From an uncultured Bacteroidales bacterium (GTDB lineage Bacteria; Bacteroidota; Bacteroidia; Bacteroidales; Bacteroidaceae), in contig CADBXO010000008.1 in the NCBI GenBank assembly GCA_902798685.1, forward strand, positions 31,041 to 95,040: DNA of 64,000 bases. Reading direction: 5' to 3'. Position 1 is the first letter of the stretch. Every line of letters begins with the position of its first letter. The position numbers were made by a program, and so were the translations under genes. This document shows, piece after piece, positions 7,766 to 63,521 of this stretch. The notes under the pieces are model-generated. The model had not been told where the DNA came from, did not search any database, and saw nothing but the letters and a program-made list of their open reading frames with translations.

Positions 7766-7879
7766 CAAAGGGGACGGTTCCGTTTGGCACGCTCAAAAAC
7801 AATCCCATCTGGGCTACAGTATGCTCAGATGGGATTTTTGCTTAAAGTGGGCGAGCCAAACGGAACCGTCCCCTATGGC
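7763..7879. repeat. Palindromic repeat family B, copy 2, with inner terminator
   Basis: The outer arms include a perfect 20-bp inverted pair (AGGGGACGGTTCCGTTTGGC on the left, its complement on the right). The inner stem is AATCCCATCTG (7801-7811) / CAGATGGGATT (7826-7836) plus a T-run, a bidirectionally placed terminator. The left end supplies the TGA of pgeF. The right arm supplies the TAG (7873-7875 on the minus strand) of tex, because the arm reads CCATAGGGGACGG instead of GACAAAGGGGACGG. Both convergent genes therefore stop inside the same element. Confidence 0.87.
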
Positions 7880-10008
7880 ACCATTGCCAGGCTGATGCGC
7901 TGACGCTCAAGGTCTACGCTCAGGACTTTGACCAGGACCTGCTGTTGGAGGGAGACTACCTGGGTGGGGTCCTTTATGAACTTGCCGGGAGCCAGCTGCG
8001 ATATGTGGATGAGTCCTTTTACGTGGACTCCTATGTCTACGAAGGCTCCGAAGTTTGTTATGTTGGAGATTATTCCGGGCAGTTCCATTCCGGCCTTGAC
8101 ATCCTCAATCGTGTGAACCTCATTTGAGAACTCGAATTTGCGTAATGGCCCGCGCGGGTCACGTCCGGGCTTTTCAAGCTCTGCCATGATGTCGGTCAGG
8201 GTGGGGAGTCCCACGGTGGCTGTCACGTACTTGTTGATGTCGATTTTGGCTCTCAACTCTGCAGACTTCATCAGATCCTCAACCGAGCAGCCCAGATCCT
8301 TTGCCATTTTCTCTACGATAGGATAGCTCTCGGGGTGTACGGCCGAGTTGTCCAGCGGCTGCTTGCCACCAGGAACGCGCAGGAATCCAGCCGACTGCTC
8401 AAACGCCTTTGCACCCATGCGCGGAACCTTCATAAGCTCCTTACGGGACTTAAACGGACCGTTCTCTGTGCGGTAGTCCACGATATTCTGAGCCAGTTGC
8501 GGACCCAGACCGCTGATGTATGTAAGAAGGTGCGTGCTGGCGGTATTCACGTTCACACCCACGCGGTTCACGCAACTAATCACCGTCTGGTCAAGCGAGT
8601 GCTTGAGCTCCGTCTGGTTGACATCCTTCTGATACTGGCCGACTCCGATAGACGACGGATCAATCTTTACAAGCTCTGCCAGAGGATCCATAAGTCGACG
8701 GCCGATAGACACTGCACCGCGAACCGTTACGTCATAATCCGGGAACTCGTCGCGCGCAGTCTTCGAGGCCGAATAGATCGAAGCGCCGTCCTCGTTTACG
8801 CTGAAAATCTGAACGCCTGCGGGCAGACGCAAATGCTCCACAAACTCCTTGGTTTCACGTCCGGCGGTACCGTTGCCGATTGCGATTGCTTCAATCTTAT
8901 ATTGCTCCACCAAAGCCTGGATTTTTGCCGCAGCCTGACGAGCCTCGTTGTGGGGCGGGTGGGGGTAGATTGCCTCGTTGTGAAGCAGTGTTCCCTGAGC
9001 ATCCAGACAGACCACCTTACAGCCCGTCCTGAAGCCCGGATCTATGCCCATAACCGCCTTCTGACCCAGTGGAGAGGCCATAAGCAGCTGCTCCAGGTTA
9101 CGTGCGAATATCCTAATTGCCTCAGCGTCAGCCGATTCCTTCGACGATGCGGCAAATTCGTTTTCGACCGATGGCTGCAGCAGGCGGTAGTACGAATCCT
9201 GAACAGCTTCGTCAACCAGTTGCGACACCTCTGATTTGCCGCGGACATACTTGTGCGACAGGGCTTCGGACGTCTTTTCGTCATCGATTTCAATTGAGAC
9301 TCTTAAGAACCCTTCAGCCTCACCGCGGCGCATCGCGAGCAGACGGTGTGACGCGCAGTGTTTCAATGATTCGTTGAAGTCAAACCAGTCGCGGTACTTC
9401 TGTGCATCGGCCTCCTTGCTCTTAACGACCTTGCTGTAGATTCGGGCCTCGCGGCGGTATCCGTTGCGCACCATGTTGCGGGCGCCCTCGTCGAGCGATA
9501 CTTGCTCGGCAATTATGTCCATTGCTCCCTGCAGGGCCTCATCAACGTTTGCTACACCTTTCTTCTTATCTATGTATTTGCCAGCCTCCTTGTCCAAAGG
9601 AACGTACGGGTTCTGCTTCATCACGAACTCCGCCAGCGGCTCCAGGCCCTTCTCGCGAGCGGCATCGGCCCTGGTCTTGCGATGCGGCTTGTAGGGGGCA
9701 TAAATGTCCTCCAACTCGGTGCTGTCCCAGCAGTGCTCAATGCGGTTCTTGAGCTCCGGAGTCAGCTTTTCCTGGCTCTCAATCGTGCTCAGCACCGTCT
9801 CCTTGCGCTTGGCCAAAGTCTCCAGACGCTCCAAAGCGTTGCTGACCTCAGTAACCTGAACCTCATCCATTCCGCCCGTGGATTCCTTGCGGTATCGGCT
9901 TATAAAAGGTATGGTGGCGCCGTTCTCAAGCAGCTTCAAAGTGTTCTCCACCTGATGCTCCCTGAGTCCCGTCTCCCGTACTATTATCTGTATGTATTCG
10001 GTGTTCAT
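7873..10008 (-). CDS. tex: Tex family RNA-binding transcription accessory protein
   Basis: A 711-residue protein with the full Tex architecture: N-terminal helical domain with ENGATIPFISRYRKE (about 29-43), a YqgF/RNase H-like domain starting near residue 320 (VMGIDPGFRTGCK), a helix-hairpin-helix region near 500-560 (NIVDYRTENGPFKSRKELMK) and a C-terminal S1 domain (GIISNITNFGAFVDIG near 645). Tex binds nucleic acid and affects transcription. The final residues LAMVP followed by TAG lie in repeat B copy 2. The S1 domain is complete, but C-terminal tails seen in some homologues are absent, so the repeat may have trimmed the protein. Confidence 0.93.
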   Translation of the reverse strand: MNTEYIQIIVRETGLREHQVENTLKLLENGATIPFISRYRKESTGGMDEVQVTEVSNALERLETLAKRKETVLSTIESQEKLTPELKNRIEHCWDSTELEDIYAPYKPHRKTRADAAREKGLEPLAEFVMKQNPYVPLDKEAGKYIDKKKGVANVDEALQGAMDIIAEQVSLDEGARNMVRNGYRREARIYSKVVKSKEADAQKYRDWFDFNESLKHCASHRLLAMRRGEAEGFLRVSIEIDDEKTSEALSHKYVRGKSEVSQLVDEAVQDSYYRLLQPSVENEFAASSKESADAEAIRIFARNLEQLLMASPLGQKAVMGIDPGFRTGCKVVCLDAQGTLLHNEAIYPHPPHNEARQAAAKIQALVEQYKIEAIAIGNGTAGRETKEFVEHLRLPAGVQIFSVNEDGASIYSASKTARDEFPDYDVTVRGAVSIGRRLMDPLAELVKIDPSSIGVGQYQKDVNQTELKHSLDQTVISCVNRVGVNVNTASTHLLTYISGLGPQLAQNIVDYRTENGPFKSRKELMKVPRMGAKAFEQSAGFLRVPGGKQPLDNSAVHPESYPIVEKMAKDLGCSVEDLMKSAELRAKIDINKYVTATVGLPTLTDIMAELEKPGRDPRGPLRKFEFSNEVHTIEDVKAGMELPGIISNITNFGAFVDIGVHVKGLIHISQLAPGKFIKDPTQVVSLQQQVLVKVLSVDLERQRISLAMVP

Positions 10009-10058: not shown

Positions 10059-10376
10059 CGCTACCCCCTGACCTTAGGGAACTGTAGCGCCCGTAGCCCC
10101 ATTTCCGTCCCCAAGGTCAGCAGGAAATACGCTATCCCGCAGGCGCCCCCTGCACCTTAGGGAGTCACAACGCAGGTGCAAGCGATTTCATCCCTAACGT
10201 CAGCAGGAAATACGCTTTCCCGCGGGCGCCCCCTGCACCTTAGGGAGTCACAACGCAGGTGCAAGCGATTTCATCCCTAAGGTGAGCTGAAAATACGCTA
10301 TCCCGCGGGCTGCCCCTGCACCTTAGGGAGCTATAACGCAGGTGCGGGCCATTTCTTCCCTAAGGTGCAGCTGCAG
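10059..10376 (-). repeat. Palindromic repeat array A1 (4 units, reverse orientation)
   Basis: Four units at exactly 83-bp spacing; the ACCTTAGGGA arm starts at 10071, 10154, 10237 and 10320. Each unit is an imperfect palindrome with arms ACCTTAGGGA / TCCCTAAGGT around a loop of about 25 bases, then a GC-rich spacer with AATACGCT and CCCGCGGG. Relative to arrays A2 and A3 the units are reversed. The array fills the tex-recA gap (10009-10434) together with the recA terminator. Confidence 0.92.
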
Positions 10377-10384
10377 GGCGCAAA

Positions 10385-10412
10385 AAAAAAGCGACCCGGG
10401 AAGGATCGCTTT
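10385..10412 (-). terminator. recA terminator
   Basis: On the minus strand AAAGCGA pairs with TCGCTTT (10388-10394 with 10406-10412) and a run of Ts follows (A-run 10382-10390 on the plus strand). It lies 23-50 bp downstream of the recA stop codon. Confidence 0.75.
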
Positions 10413-10434
10413 AGAAAAAAGGGCTAGCACTCAA

Positions 10435-11514
10435 TTAATCGTTCATCATTTCGGAGTCTGCATCGGGTTCCGGAGCCTGCGGGTTGCCAAGGATGGCTGC
10501 CATGATTTTCTGCTCCAGTTCCTCAGCCAGCTCGGGATTGTCCTGCATGAGCTGCTTGGTTGCGTCTCGGCCCTGAGCCAGGCGGGTGTCGCCGTAGCTG
10601 AACCATGAGCCGCTCTTCTTGAGGATGCCGTACTCAACGCCCAGGTCAACAATCTCGCCGGATTTGCTGATGCCCTCGCCGAACATGATGTCGAACTCGG
10701 CCTTGCGGAAAGGAGGCGCAACCTTGTTCTTTACCACCTTTACGCGAACCTGGTTACCAACCACGCTGTCACCGTCCTTCAACTGAGTTACGCGGCGGAT
10801 ATCCAGACGGACCGATGCGTAGAACTTGAGCGCGTTACCGCCGGTGGTTGTTTCGGGATTACCGAACATGATGCCGATCTTTTCACGTAACTGGTTGATA
10901 AAGATGCAAGTAGTATTGGTCTTGTTGATGGTCGATGTCAGCTTGCGGAGGGCCTGGCTCATCAGACGAGCCTGCAGACCGACCTTGTTGTCACCCATAT
11001 CGCCCTCGATTTCGGCCTTGGGAGTAAGTGCGGCGACACTATCGATTACGATGATATCGATCGCGCTGGAGCGGATAAGCTGCTCGGCAATCTCGAGTGC
11101 CTGCTCGCCGTTATCGGGCTGTGAAATCCACAGATTGTCGATATCGACCCCGAGTTTAGCGGCGTAGAATCGGTCGAAAGCATGCTCGGCGTCGATGAAC
11201 GCTGCAATTCCGCCGGCTTTCTGGGCCTCGGCAATGGCGTGAATGGCCAGAGTGGTCTTACCTGATGATTCGGGACCGTAAATCTCGATTATTCGGCCGC
11301 GCGGATAACCGCCTACGCCAAGTGCGGCATTAAGGCCGATGGAACCGGTGGGGATGACGTCAACGTTCTCAACGCTTTCGTCTCCCAGTTTCATGATGGA
11401 GCCCTTTCCAAAACTCTTTTCAATCTTGTCAGTTGCTGCCTGCAGCGCTTTGAGTTTCTCGCTCAAACCTGCATTCTGAAGGCCTGACGCGCCCTCAATC
11501 TCTTTCTTTGCCAT
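10435..11514 (-). CDS. recA: Recombinase RecA
   Basis: A 359-residue RecA. Walker A is GPESSGKT (80-87), the DNA-binding loop region contains [19 protein letters not shown], and the C-terminus is acidic ([11 protein letters not shown]) as usual. RecA carries out homologous strand exchange and SOS activation. It stands alone, bordered on both sides by family A repeat arrays in opposite orientation (A1 downstream, A2 upstream). It is an ordinary complete gene with no sign of interruption. Confidence 0.98.
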
Positions 11515-11599
11515 AATATGACTGTAATTAAATTAGCTAATCCCGAAGAGTGTCTTCCAAGGTATCTCTCCAGTAGAGCGCCTTTTGACACTCCGTAGG

Positions 11600-11607
11600 C
11601 AAAGATA
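11600..11607 (-). promoter_or_regulatory. Probable -7 box of recA
   Basis: The minus strand reads TATCTTTG, a full match to TAnnTTTG, 86 bp before the recA start. A -33 TTTG at the standard spacing was not found; the nearest (complement of CAAA at 11621-11624) is too close. No obvious SOS operator was recognised in the leader. Confidence 0.5.
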
Positions 11608-11669
11608 TGAAAACGCGTCACAAATCATAGCCCGACGCGGAAAATTTTATTAACAACCGAATTCTCCCA

Positions 11670-12004
11670 CGCACCTTAGGGATGAAATCGCTTGCACCTG
11701 CGTTGTGACTCCCTAAGGTGCAGGGGTGGCCCGCGAGAAAGCGTATTTCCTACTGATGTTAGGGATGAAAATGGCTCCACCTGCGTTGTGACTCCCTAAG
11801 GTGCAGGGGTGGCCCGCGGGATAGCGTATTTTCCGCTCACCTTAGGGATGGAAATGGCCCTACGTGCGTTCTCGCTCCCTAAGGTCAGGGGGTAACCCGC
11901 GAGAAAGCGTATTTTCGGCTCACCTTAGGGACGGAAATGGGGCTACGTGCGCTACAGTTCCCTAAGGTCAGGGGGAGAGAGCCCGCGGGGAAACGTATTT
12001 TCTG
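11670..12004 (+). repeat. Palindromic repeat array A2 (4 units, forward)
   Basis: Four 83-bp units with arm starts at 11673, 11756, 11839 and 11922. Unit 2 has a degraded left arm (GATGTTAGGG for GACCTTAGGG). Tails alternate between CCCGCGAGAAAGCGTATT and related forms. The array lies between the recA promoter region and the RAYT promoter. The remainder of the 11515-12104 gap holds the recA leader and the RAYT leader. Confidence 0.92.
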
Positions 12005-12035
12005 TGCGGAGGTATCGGGTATCGGACTAAAGAAC

Positions 12036-12043
12036 TATATTTG
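12036..12043 (+). promoter_or_regulatory. Possible -7 box of the RAYT gene
   Basis: TATATTTG fits TAnnTTTG and lies 61 bp before the ATG. No -33 TTTG is seen at the right distance, and the region just upstream is the end of array A2. Confidence 0.45.
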
Positions 12044-12104
12044 CGGATGATAAGTGTCTAACACCATTGTTTGCGAATAAACCTAAACCTAAACCATAAT
12101 TACA

Positions 12105-13073
12105 ATGAAAGATCTTTTCCATGTTTGCATGACCGCGCACAAGGAGGTCATGACGAGAAATTCTGATGACGCTCGCGATTTCACAAATCTTATGGCTTTG
12201 GCTGCGTTCAGAAATGACACCAGCATTCTTGCGGACTCCGTGATGTCTAACCACGTCCACTTTATCGTACTGTCCGAGTCGCCGCATAAATTTGCGCTCT
12301 CACTCAGGTATTCGGTGACCAAACATTTCAACTACGTTTACGGAAGAATCGGCAGGCTCTTTGATAAAAGAGTGTTTATCAAGAAGTTGGAGGGAACGAA
12401 GCATATTCAGATGGCCATAAACTATTGCCTCCGGAATGGCCTGCACCACGGGCAGAGTGAGACCGCTTTCGCGTACCCGTTCAGCACTTGCAACTACATT
12501 TTCTCCCGCGCCAGGGGAATTCAGGACTCGAACCTGTCATTTAATCGGGCCGAGATTCAATCGTACCTGCCCAAAAACGCTTACTTCCCGGATAATTTTG
12601 GCATTGATAGTCAGGGCGTTATATCGAGAAAGACATTTCAGGAAATCAGAATTACCGAATCCTGGTTCGGAACGCCCACCAATTACATTTATAACATGAA
12701 CCGCCGCACGACCGAAGATTGGATAAAGGAGCAGGAGAAGGACGATGTAACGGCCGATCCTATCACGTTGAAAATCATAGAGAAAGGCGTGCAGTTTGAC
12801 TCGGAGGCCGATATGCTTAAGAATGAGATGGGTGGCCGGGCTTCGGTGGTGAACATGAATGACATGGAGGTTTGCTCCGTGGTCGACAACGATATTCTTG
12901 GCCGATACAAGAGCAAGAGCGTCTACCAATTGAATGATAAGCGCCGATGCCAAATCGCTCTGGAACTCATTCACGATTGTCACATCAATGCGATTCAGGC
13001 AGCACGCTGCGTCGCGCTCCCCGTATCCTTCTTGCCCGAAGAGTACCGTCCCAAGAAGCTCCGCTCATACTAG
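12105..13073 (+). CDS. REP-associated tyrosine transposase (RAYT, Y1/HUH family)
   Basis: A 322-residue protein whose first 120 residues match the Y1 transposase (IS200-like) fold: the HUH motif H50-x-H52 in MSNHVHFIV, followed by a helix with INYCLRNGLHHG where Tyr107 is the likely nucleophile (it aligns by eye with the YIxxNPVxxG region of RAYTs). A C-terminal extension of about 200 residues contains no family that I recognise, although residues near 275-320 look like a helix-turn-helix (CQIALELIHDCHINAIQAARCVALP). RAYTs cut and join single-stranded REP hairpins. The gene is single, without TnpB or terminal inverted repeats, and is bounded on both sides by family A arrays, the last starting about 3 bases after its stop codon. 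This is the expected layout of a RAYT with its own repeats. Confidence 0.85.
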   Translation: MKDLFHVCMTAHKEVMTRNSDDARDFTNLMALAAFRNDTSILADSVMSNHVHFIVLSESPHKFALSLRYSVTKHFNYVYGRIGRLFDKRVFIKKLEGTKHIQMAINYCLRNGLHHGQSETAFAYPFSTCNYIFSRARGIQDSNLSFNRAEIQSYLPKNAYFPDNFGIDSQGVISRKTFQEIRITESWFGTPTNYIYNMNRRTTEDWIKEQEKDDVTADPITLKIIEKGVQFDSEADMLKNEMGGRASVVNMNDMEVCSVVDNDILGRYKSKSVYQLNDKRRCQIALELIHDCHINAIQAARCVALPVSFLPEEYRPKKLRSY

Positions 13074-13075
13074 GA

Positions 13076-13570
13076 TGGCGCATTTTCCTGCTGACCTTAG
13101 GGAGAGAAATGGCCGCACCTGCGTTGTAGCTCCCTAAGGTCAGGGGGTAACGCAGGTACGAGCGTATTTTTCTGCTCACCTTAGGGAGAGAAATGGCTGC
13201 ACCTGCGTTCTGACTCCCTAAGGTCAGGGGGTAACGCAGGTGATAGCGTTTTTTCTGCTCACCTTAGGGATGAAAATGGTCCTACGTGCGCTACAGTTCC
13301 CTAAGGTCAGGGGGTGACGCAGGTTCTGGCGTATTTTCTGCTCACCTTAGGGATGAAAATGCTTCTACGTGCGCTACAGTTCCCTAAGGTCAGGGGGTAA
13401 CGCAGGTTCTGGCGTATTTCCTGCTCACCTTAGGGATGAAAATGCTCCTATGTGCGCTACAGTTCCCTAAGGTGCAGGGGTAGCCCGCGAGGAAACGTAT
13501 TTTCCGCGTGACCTTAGGGAAGAAATGGCCCGCACCTGCGTTGTGACTCCCTAAGGTCACTGGGTGGCGG
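13076..13570 (+). repeat. Palindromic repeat array A3 (6 units plus a partial tail, forward)
   Basis: A partial unit tail (GGCGCATTTTCCTG) follows the RAYT stop codon directly, then six units start at about 13091, 13175, 13258, 13341, 13424 and 13508 (83-84 bp each). Stems are ACCTTAGGGA / TCCCTAAGGT. In units 1 and 2 the loop ACCTGCGTT is complementary to the tail AACGCAGGT. Units 3-5 share a different loop (ACGTGCGCTACAG). The last unit is truncated and diverged. The rest of the 13074-13713 gap is the dnaK upstream region. Confidence 0.92.
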
Positions 13571-13713: not shown

Positions 13714-15639
13714 ATGGGAAAGATTATTGGAATTGACCTTGGAACCACGAACTCGTGCGTTTCAGTTTTTGAGGGTAATGAGCCTGTCGTAATCGCTAAC
13801 AGCGAGGGCAAGCGTACGACTCCTTCAATTGTGGCTTTCGTGGATGGTGGCGAGCGTAAGGTGGGTGATCCCGCTAAGCGTCAGGCTATTACCAACCCGC
13901 AGCGTACCGTGTTCTCAATCAAGCGTTTCATGGGTGAGAACTGGGATCAGGTTCAGAAAGAGATCGCCCGCGTACCTTACAAGGTAGTTAAGGGTGACAA
14001 CAATATGCCGCGTGTGGACATTGACGGACGTCTGTACACCGCTCAGGAGATATCGGCCATGATTCTTCAGAAGATGAAGAAGACCGCCGAGGATTATCTG
14101 GGTCAGGAGGTTACAGAGGCTGTCATCACAGTTCCGGCTTACTTCAGCGACTCACAGCGTCAGGCCACCAAGGAGGCTGGTCAGATTGCCGGTCTGGATG
14201 TAAAGCGTATCGTGAACGAGCCTACCGCTGCCGCTTTGGCATACGGTGTTGACAAGGCTAACAAGGATATGAAGATCGCAGTATTCGACCTGGGTGGCGG
14301 TACATTCGATATCTCCATCCTGGAGTTCGGCGGCGGCGTATTCGAGGTACTCGCCACCAACGGTGATACCCACCTGGGCGGTGATGACTTTGACCAGGTG
14401 ATCATCAACTGGCTGGTTGAGGAGTTCAAGAAGGACGAGGGTGCAGACCTGACTGCCGATCCTATGGCACTGCAGCGTCTTAAGGAGGCTGCCGAGAAGG
14501 CCAAGATCGAGCTGTCATCATCAACCAGTACCGAGATCAACCTGCCGTACATCATGCCGGTAGCAGGTGTTCCGCGTCACCTTGTAAAAACTCTTACACG
14601 TGCCAAGTTTGAGCAGCTGGCCAACGGTCTGATCCAGGCTTGTCTGGAGCCCTGCCGCAAGGCTATGAGTGATGCCGGCCTTAGCAACTCCGATATCGAC
14701 GAGGTAATCCTGGTAGGTGGTTCAAGCCGTATCCCCGCAGTTCAGAAGCTCGTTGAGGATTTCTTCGGCAAGGTACCTTCCAAGGGCGTTAATCCCGATG
14801 AGGTAGTAGCCGTAGGTGCTTCAATCCAGGGCGCTATCCTGAACAAGGAGGGTGGTGTAGGTGACATCGTACTTCTGGATGTAACCCCGCTGACAATGGG
14901 TATCGAGACCATGGGTGGTGTAATGACCAAGCTGATCGAGGCCAACACAACCATCCCGTGCAAGAAGAGTGAAATTTTCTCAACAGCGGCCGATAACCAG
15001 ACAGCCGTAACAATACACGTTCTGCAGGGCGAGCGCCCCATGGCAAGCCAGAACAAGTCCATCGGCCAGTTCAACCTGGAGGGTATCGCACCCGCACGTC
15101 GTGGCGTACCTCAAATTGAGGTTACATTCGATATCGACGCCAACGGTATCCTTAAGGTATCGGCCAAGGATAAGGCTACAGGCAAGGAGCAGGCTATCCG
15201 TATCGAGGCAAGCTCAGGTCTGAGCAAGGAGGAGATTGAGCGCATGAAGGCCGAGGCCGAGGCAAACGCCGATGCCGATAAGAAGGAGCGTGAGAAAGTT
15301 GACAAACTCAACCAGGCTGACTCAATGATCTTCCAGACCGAGCAGCAGCTGCAGGATCTGGGCGACAAGATTCCTGCCGACAAGAAGGCTCCTATCGAGA
15401 GCGCACTCAACGCCCTGAAGGATGCTCACAAGGCTCAGGATCTGGCCGCAATCGACAAGGCTATGGCCGAGCTCAACACCGCCTTCCAGGCAGCCAGCGC
15501 ACAGATGTACCAGCAGAGCGGCGCACAGCCCGGTGCCGGCGCAGGTGCCCAGAGCGGTCCTCAGGACGCCGGTCAGAGCAGCAGCTCCAGCACCTCTGGC
15601 GACAACGTCCAGGACGCTGACTTCGAGGAGGTTAAGTAA
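13714..15639 (+). CDS. dnaK: Chaperone DnaK (Hsp70)
   Basis: A 641-residue Hsp70. The nucleotide-binding domain begins [18 protein letters not shown], contains [14 protein letters not shown] (about 190-203) and [20 protein letters not shown] (about 331-350), and is followed by the substrate-binding domain ([17 protein letters not shown] near 389). The C-terminus is Gly/Gln/Ser-rich, ending in an acidic tail ([10 protein letters not shown]), all typical. It folds and holds client proteins with DnaJ and GrpE; neither partner gene is adjacent. The gene stands alone between array A3 and its own terminator. Confidence 0.98.
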
Positions 15640-63350: not shown

Positions 63351-63458
63351 TTTTGTATGGATATTATATCATTTTTCTTCTGCTTAGTTGGGTGATTTTT
63401 ATTCTCTAACTTGGGAGTGGGATTTCTCGTGCATCGGCCCATATTGATAGTATCGTTC

Positions 63459-63521
63459 AATCGGTACCAACGTAGCGGTCGAATCGGTACCACCGTAGCG
63501 GAGCAATCGGTACCATCATAG
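63459..63521. repeat. Triple 23-bp direct repeat
   Basis: AATCGGTACCAACGTAGCGG occurs at 63459, with variants at 63482 and 63505 (third one truncated to AATCGGTACCATCATAG). The period is 23 bp. It directly abuts the IS3-family end and looks like the end of another element with repeated terminal sites, left behind or truncated; this interpretation is uncertain. Confidence 0.7.

Follow-up and report, generated by a model that had tools for sequence, protein, structure and literature searches.

Repetitive extragenic palindromes (REPs) are recognised by TnpA_REP through a GTAG tag and the stem (PMC8266576). In Pseudomonas fluorescens SBW25, REPs and REPINs (REP doublets forming hairpins) were described in ordered, head-to-tail and evenly spaced clusters, some of which lie beside each REP-associated tyrosine transposase (RAYT) gene (PMC3116915), and REP clusters in tandem have been reported more widely (PMC3733652). 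Among the Y1 transposases, subclasses 2.6 and 3 are without the tag; TnpA_Y1 subclass 2.6, from Bacteroidetes, has no GT[AG]G tag, carries unusual hairpins next to the gene, of which further copies occur elsewhere, and is printed with a length of 179, WQ and the Tyr motif YIH[QN]NP (PMC6006769).

The window analysed here is a stretch of 64,000 nucleotides from an uncultured Bacteroidales bacterium (GenBank assembly GCA_902798685.1, contig CADBXO010000008.1), in which three arrays of a hairpin repeat surround recA and the gene of a RAYT-like Y1 HUH (histidine–hydrophobic residue–histidine) protein. We consider this to be, with good probability, a RAYT/REP-type system in which a host-maintained Y1 HUH protein would have as its substrate the single-stranded hairpin unit found around its gene. 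What is shown is a predicted Y1 fold with its catalytic residues, purifying selection, direct arrays on both sides of the gene, dispersal of the repeat and clade-specific stems.

The transposase and the arrays around it

The RAYT gene is an open reading frame (ORF) of 322 amino acids (aa) at 12105-13073 on the plus strand. No Pfam family matched it at E 0.001; Y1_Tnp appeared below the cut-off (E 0.011) and, with E values of up to 1 allowed, in 12/14 homologues, and NCBIfam REP_Tyr_transpos gave 26.2 bits, under its cut-off of 80. The AlphaFold2 model (predicted local distance difference test score, pLDDT, 89.1) was searched with Foldseek. The top Protein Data Bank (PDB) match was 4er8, the E. 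coli RAYT (TnpA_REP) with a REP hairpin (E 2.4e-5; template-modelling (TM) score 0.34 by query and 0.61 by target). Ranks 2-30 were IS200-type transposases, with IS608 and ISDra2 within ranks 2-23. H50-x-H52 and Y107 were invariant in 14/14 aligned homologues (306-378 aa), and the modelled fold, the HUH pair and the catalytic Tyr together place the protein in the Y1 HUH superfamily. About 190 aa of the protein form a C-terminal extension. The gene belongs to a group termed clade a, present as one copy per genome in 6/6 genomes and under purifying selection (dN/dS 0.044-0.105 in 15/15 pairs of the six genes). Two more full-length relatives, one of clade b (41% identical) and one of clade c, are encoded in the same genome. 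Among the matches listed from 393 genomes of the order, only this genome's three covered the whole profile, the others being mainly N-terminal. A further Y1-type match, with a 297-aa open frame, lies ∼3 kb left of the window (G000:C8:27738-28148).

Array A1 (10071-10366, minus strand) comprises four hairpin units, at 10071-10117, 10154-10200, 10237-10283 and 10320-10366. Array A2 (11673-11968, plus strand) also has four, at 11673-11719, 11756-11802, 11839-11885 and 11922-11968, and array A3 (13094-13557, plus strand) has six, at 13094-13140, 13178-13224, 13261-13307, 13344-13390, 13427-13473 and 13511-13557. Unit-to-unit spacings are 83, 83 and 83 bp in A1, the same in A2, and 84, 83, 83, 83 and 84 bp in A3. 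A2 and A3, both in direct orientation, flank the RAYT gene, the first A3 hairpin following its stop codon by 20 bp. A1 lies in the opposite orientation beyond recA (10435-11514, minus strand, Pfam RecA), which occupies the segment between the inverted arrays A1 and A2. The sequence-only reading of this DNA had claimed 14 units in three arrays with an 83-84 bp period, A2 and A3 bracketing the RAYT gene, A1 past recA in opposite orientation and A3 beginning right after the RAYT stop, and the coordinates and spacings agree with each point.

Its '83-bp palindromic repeat' was correct as to the period. For the unit, however, a 47-bp hairpin, ACCTTAGGGA-N27-TCCCTAAGGT (10+27+10), followed by a linker of 36-37 bp, is a better description than an 83-bp palindrome. 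The common stem proposed there was recovered, with 0-2 mismatches in total to the two arms per window unit. As regards a REPIN, in which two inverted REPs make up one hairpin that moves as a unit, the 47-mer folds as a single 10-bp stem, the linker folds likewise together with its flanking arms, and single units are too rare to fix the unit. In a fixed register of 155 unique units kept after an arm filter, which itself raises arm conservation, information per base was 0.64 bits in linkers, 1.12 in loops and ∼1.9 in arms. The even lengths of a 47-bp repeat and a 36-bp spacer would also suit an array of clustered regularly interspaced short palindromic repeats (CRISPR). The linkers are alike between units and it is the hairpin loops that vary, so this reading, for which no search aimed at cas genes was made, is disfavoured and has next to no probability.

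Dispersal of the repeat and its stem families

Genomes are given G labels and loci L labels below, the genome of the window being G000 (2.26 Mb, 42 contigs, 83.7% complete). A whole-genome search with the exact pattern ACCTTAGGGA-N{20,40}-TCCCTAAGGT found 32 places in G000, 11 of them in the window arrays, and none with the reversed control, and hence the pattern is not due to chance; exact-pattern counts, here and below, miss diverged copies. BLAST with the A3 region found 11 places on seven contigs, three of them in the window, which together with one on C20 gave 12 arrays. All 12 lie between main ORFs (with overlaps of 1-2 bases at ORF ends, small mechanical ORFs being ignored), so that the repeats are dispersed in extragenic DNA, as for REPs.

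Such positions would also be expected if the arrays were mainly regulatory or structural DNA selected by the host, such as terminators or sites for supercoiling or nucleoid proteins, as argued for REPs and bacterial interspersed mosaic elements (BIMEs). The DNA helix has 10.5 bp per turn, and 83-84 bp is close to eight turns. Some arrays also occupy corresponding places in two species, namely at metK (G000/G012), at an epimerase-type gene (G000/G010) and at an esterase gene (G000/G026). Presence and unit number nevertheless vary between close relatives at the same site: at collinear sites the array upstream of metK is missing in G011 and G026, and that beside a RadA-like gene is missing in G012. 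Stems differ with the RAYT clade, and no Rfam family was found above chance, the single match (mir-24, E 0.39) being at chance level, so that a non-coding RNA family was rejected. We regard a mainly regulatory role as quite improbable.

Genes of recombination occur among the array neighbours, namely recA (window A1/A2), the RadA-like gene and ruvC in G008 (L079:5922-8540, L090:6210-6992), which may be coincidence; the gene that we take to be RadA-like has AAA and Lon_C domains by scan. At L085, L086, L088 and L089 (G006, G009, G021, G026) the arrays have another loop type (GGCCCGTACGCG or close to it) and neighbour a regulator pair, presumably BlaI/BlaR1-like. A separate repeated motif, GAACCGTCCC / GGGACGGTTC, is intergenic in several genomes of the genus (the recA-dnaK gaps of L134 and L149, L171, downstream in L049, and near 8090 in L081).

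Left and right flanks were compared at 30 Y1 loci, and 22 matched, three of them weakly (G017e, G031f, G084); most genes are thus flanked by palindromic repeats of their own family. The G032 RAYT (62% identical to that of the window) has the stem ACGTTAGGGA/TCCCTAACGT with a period of 83 bp, and G035 has GGATAGGGA/TCCCTATCC with a period of 84 bp, so that the 83-84 bp period is common to three stem families. Other stems are TTAGGGACA in G014, TGTCTCAGGAAC in G019 and GTCGGAGCGTCC types in clade b. The G032b repeats have a period of 95, an 84-bp array lies ∼1 kb downstream at L042 (G017), and more distant Y1 genes are flanked by tandem repeats of 63 bp (L054, G028) and 52 bp (L053, G068); this survey counted spacings redundantly, since its loci overlap. 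All ten RAYTs whose stems are of the TAGGGA type group together in the protein tree, with 100/100 support; for other parts of that tree the program issued a long-branch warning. Where stems differ between these families, the two arms differ in step (ACC/GGT to ACG/CGT). Within clade a, A2 and A3 flank the RAYT gene in 6/6 genomes and A1 is present in 4/6. In 5/5 genomes examined, the clade-c RAYT gene immediately follows a PIF1-HRDC helicase gene (L027:864-3074; L003, L049-L052); judged by gene order, the HUH protein and the helicase appear as a conserved pair in clade c.

Stem families largely follow their transposases. The G032 stem ACGTTAGGGA has 18 copies in G032, one in G026 and none in 35/37 genomes of the genus, and GATAGGGA has 41 in G017, 41 in G035, seven in G029 and none in 34/37. 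The window stem ACCTTAGGGA is present in 16/299 genomes, all within the genus (16/37; 0/262 outside). All six clade-a genomes carry it (G000 32 copies, G006 29, G008 77, G009 23, G011 3, G026 14). Rather than being equally frequent without the clade, it was commoner with it (Mann-Whitney p 5.8e-5), and at least ten copies were found in 5/6 genomes with clade a against 4/31 without (Fisher p 0.0016), both values being uncorrected for kinship.

The arrays themselves were surveyed in 63 stretches picked because they matched, single matches with at least three mismatches being dropped; two G008 arrays were split in two, one G012 unit (gap 23) was spurious and one G023 single lay near a contig end. 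Apart from that spurious unit, neighbouring units were 82-85 bp apart. At these places chosen by match, arrays of a single unit made up 1/55 in clade-a genomes (147 bp from its neighbour) and 9/28 elsewhere, and the median array size was three with clade a and two without (p 1.4e-5). Loop identity, for which units under 40 bits were dropped, was 0.750 for neighbours within one array (n=57); it was 0.658 for orthologous arrays from different genomes (n=759) and 0.659 for non-orthologous arrays (n=1406). Orthologous arrays are no more alike than non-orthologous ones, which argues that units turn over within a genome. In a comparison that took 11/12 arrays of G000 and 13/18 rows of G008 (one L249 unit being out of register), G008 arrays were homogenised inside (0.779 within against ∼0.68 between arrays) and G000 arrays hardly so (0.658 against ∼0.645). 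Movement of arrays as blocks was considered and rejected, unit order being only weakly shared between arrays: for the same rank from the 5′ end, identity was 0.672 against 0.642 in G000 (p 0.003) and 0.687 against 0.677 in G008 (p 0.0535), and the same rank from the 3′ end gave p 0.638 and 0.811, respectively.

Several observations weigh against a RAYT/REP-type system. The fold match is restricted to the N-terminal part of the protein; the 14-protein alignment has no W at the published W-motif place, and the Tyr motif, which reads YxLRNGLHH or near, is unlike those of the printed Y1 subclasses in a by-eye comparison (PMC6006769). GTAG stands at the outer flank of 1/155 units 3′ and 0/155 5′, and CGTC of none 3′ and two 5′; for the opposite strand, CTAC (the reverse complement of GTAG) was found at eight outer 5′ flanks and within the loop of 26 units. 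Eight of the 30 Y1 loci had no left-right match within 700 bp (L042, L034, L003, L049-L052, L055), and these include five clade-c RAYTs, yet a distant inverted pair is present in G000c, and there are hairpins downstream. At the empty metK and RadA-like sites no exact target site, duplication or clean excision was readable, the flanks being too diverged. The window stem occurs in 10/31 genomes of the genus without clade a (G027 18 copies, G012 15, G010 14, G021 13; G013, G020 and G023 three each; G015, G018 and G022 one each) and is absent from 21; in seven of the ten (G012, G013, G015, G018, G020, G021, G022) the recA-dnaK junction is seen and the RAYT is absent. A tree-aware test on a recA-tex-dnaK species tree of 30 of the 37 genomes gave four independent pairs on supported branches, of which two to four agree and none disagrees (median p 0.25, not significant). 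G032, G023, G002, G029 and G027, with no recA match at threshold, and G019 and G010, with a partial match without locus, are off this tree, on which RAYT presence needs five changes. Arm mismatches per unit were 0.27 without and 0.35 with the RAYT (p 0.28); being alike in both sets, they show no decay without it.

The persistence of the repeat in those ten genomes, the similar arm mismatches and the homogenisation inside G008 arrays, as plain tandem duplication gives, are what would be expected if the arrays were tandem repeats of the ordinary sort, with RecA recombination or slippage expanding and homogenising them and the RAYT having landed among them by chance and being now inert on them. 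That account is unlikely in our judgement: two other stem families track their own RAYTs in the 37 genomes, a majority of RAYT loci carry hairpins of their own to the left and right, the RAYT gene has been conserved, and spread to unlinked intergenic sites with a single 83-bp period needs more than local expansion. The presence of the stem in 10/31 genomes without clade a means that its tie to the window RAYT is strong, not strict, among families that otherwise co-vary with their transposases. The simplest reading of this pattern would be repeated loss of the RAYT, or some transfer, with arrays lingering. That RAYT and arrays form one system, as the sequence-only reading had proposed, is supported by the TnpA_REP/IS200-type fold, the clade-specific hairpins, the two stems tracking their RAYTs and the repeat in 6/6 clade-a genomes; among the genomes lacking the clade, which it proposed to check for absence of the repeat, 10/31 carry it.

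Gene order at recA and a candidate mechanism

A1 is bordered on its left by an ORF at 7873-10008 (minus strand), which we take to be Tex-like, and A3 on its right by dnaK (13714-15639, plus strand, Pfam HSP70); both served as synteny markers. Elsewhere in the window, 63371-63515 holds two short tandem repeats, one with a period of 24 and one of 23. recA loci were recovered from 30/37 genomes of the genus. The nearer relatives that lack clade a have tex(-), recA(+) and dnaK(+) in this order, and 107 bp lie between recA and dnaK in G012, G021 and G030. In 5/6 clade-a genomes array, RAYT and array stand between recA and dnaK; in G008 they stand between recA and tex, and the contig ends inside an array beyond recA. 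recA and the RAYT gene have the same direction in G011, G006, G009 and G026 and opposite directions in G000 and G008. Compared with four of the five other clade-a genomes, the window has the recA segment between A1 and A2 inverted, which the sequence-only reading could not see; the flanking sequence beyond A1 and A2 corresponds to that of G006, with the recA segment reversed. In these assembled metagenome-assembled genomes (MAGs), inverted arrays mark the inversion ends in 2/6 clade-a genomes, and G008 may have undergone another inversion, its ends falling in A1 and A3. A misjoin is unlikely, because the longest exact inverted match between A1 and A2 is only 55 bp. Inverted array pairs at metK and at the RadA-like gene showed no inversion relative to G011. 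Repeat-driven inversion of recA across the genus was rejected: the outgroup loci in G014, G035, G001 and G028 have other gene orientations and no array-like flanking repeats, and the repeat-linked inversion is claimed for G000 and G008 only.

Under the RAYT/REP-type reading, the RAYT would recognise the hairpin on an exposed strand and nick beside it, and nicking could seed the unit at new intergenic sites. In steps of 83 bp, arrays would subsequently lengthen, shorten and become homogeneous through RAYT action, recombination or slippage, and they would linger once the RAYT is lost. Inverted array pairs could recombine, which would explain the inverted recA segment. A bolder proposal is that the whole 83-nt unit is mobile, the RAYT freeing a single-stranded circle whose copying gives head-to-tail multimers with a period fixed by the enzyme, and inverted arrays serving as a switch for turning segments, that of recA among them; we think this unlikely.

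Comparison with known systems

The system would extend the RAYT/REP kind to a divergent protein branch missed by the Pfam cut-off, in Bacteroidaceae with rumen-dwelling relatives. Several sister transposase-stem pairs in one genus, with both arms differing, provide a natural experiment on the co-evolution of HUH proteins and hairpins, and the 83-84 bp period in three stem families opens the origin of REP arrays to direct tests. With its inverted segment enclosed by inverted arrays, the recA locus offers a concrete example of arrays marking a change of gene order. No report on these arrays or on this RAYT branch was found in a literature search limited to open-licence PMC papers.

IS200/IS605 insertion sequences share the catalytic fold and differ from the present clade, which has one copy per genome (6/6) and the long C-terminal extension. 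As in TnpA_Y1 subclass 2.6 (PMC6006769), the host belongs to the Bacteroidota and tagless hairpins lie beside the gene and elsewhere; unlike the 179 aa, WQ and YIH[QN]NP of its printed table, judged by eye, the present proteins have 306-378 aa, a YxLRNGLHH-like motif and no W. The suggestion of the sequence-only reading that regular tandem arrays are less usual was half right, since ordered REP/REPIN arrays, some beside RAYTs, were described in SBW25 (PMC3116915). Those clusters share with ours the head-to-tail, evenly spaced repeats, some adjoining a RAYT; singlets and doublets are commonest there, unlike the 1/55 single arrays with clade a and 9/28 without found here. Ordered REP arrays beside RAYTs are known from Pseudomonas, and the present system is therefore filed within the known RAYT/REP kind. 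With E. coli TnpA_REP and the proteobacterial RAYT/REP systems (REPtron) it has in common the Y1 HUH fold, a gene flanked by dispersed intergenic palindromes and a repeat family for each transposase. It differs from these systems in having no GTAG tag, no W motif, the Tyr motif YxLRNGLHH, a C-terminal extension of ∼190 aa, a 10-bp stem, a 27-nt loop and repeats mostly in arrays. As a candidate variant of RAYT/REP it agrees with most sequence tests, but has neither the published protein motifs nor the GTAG/CGTC tag, and it looks like a divergent branch of that kind.

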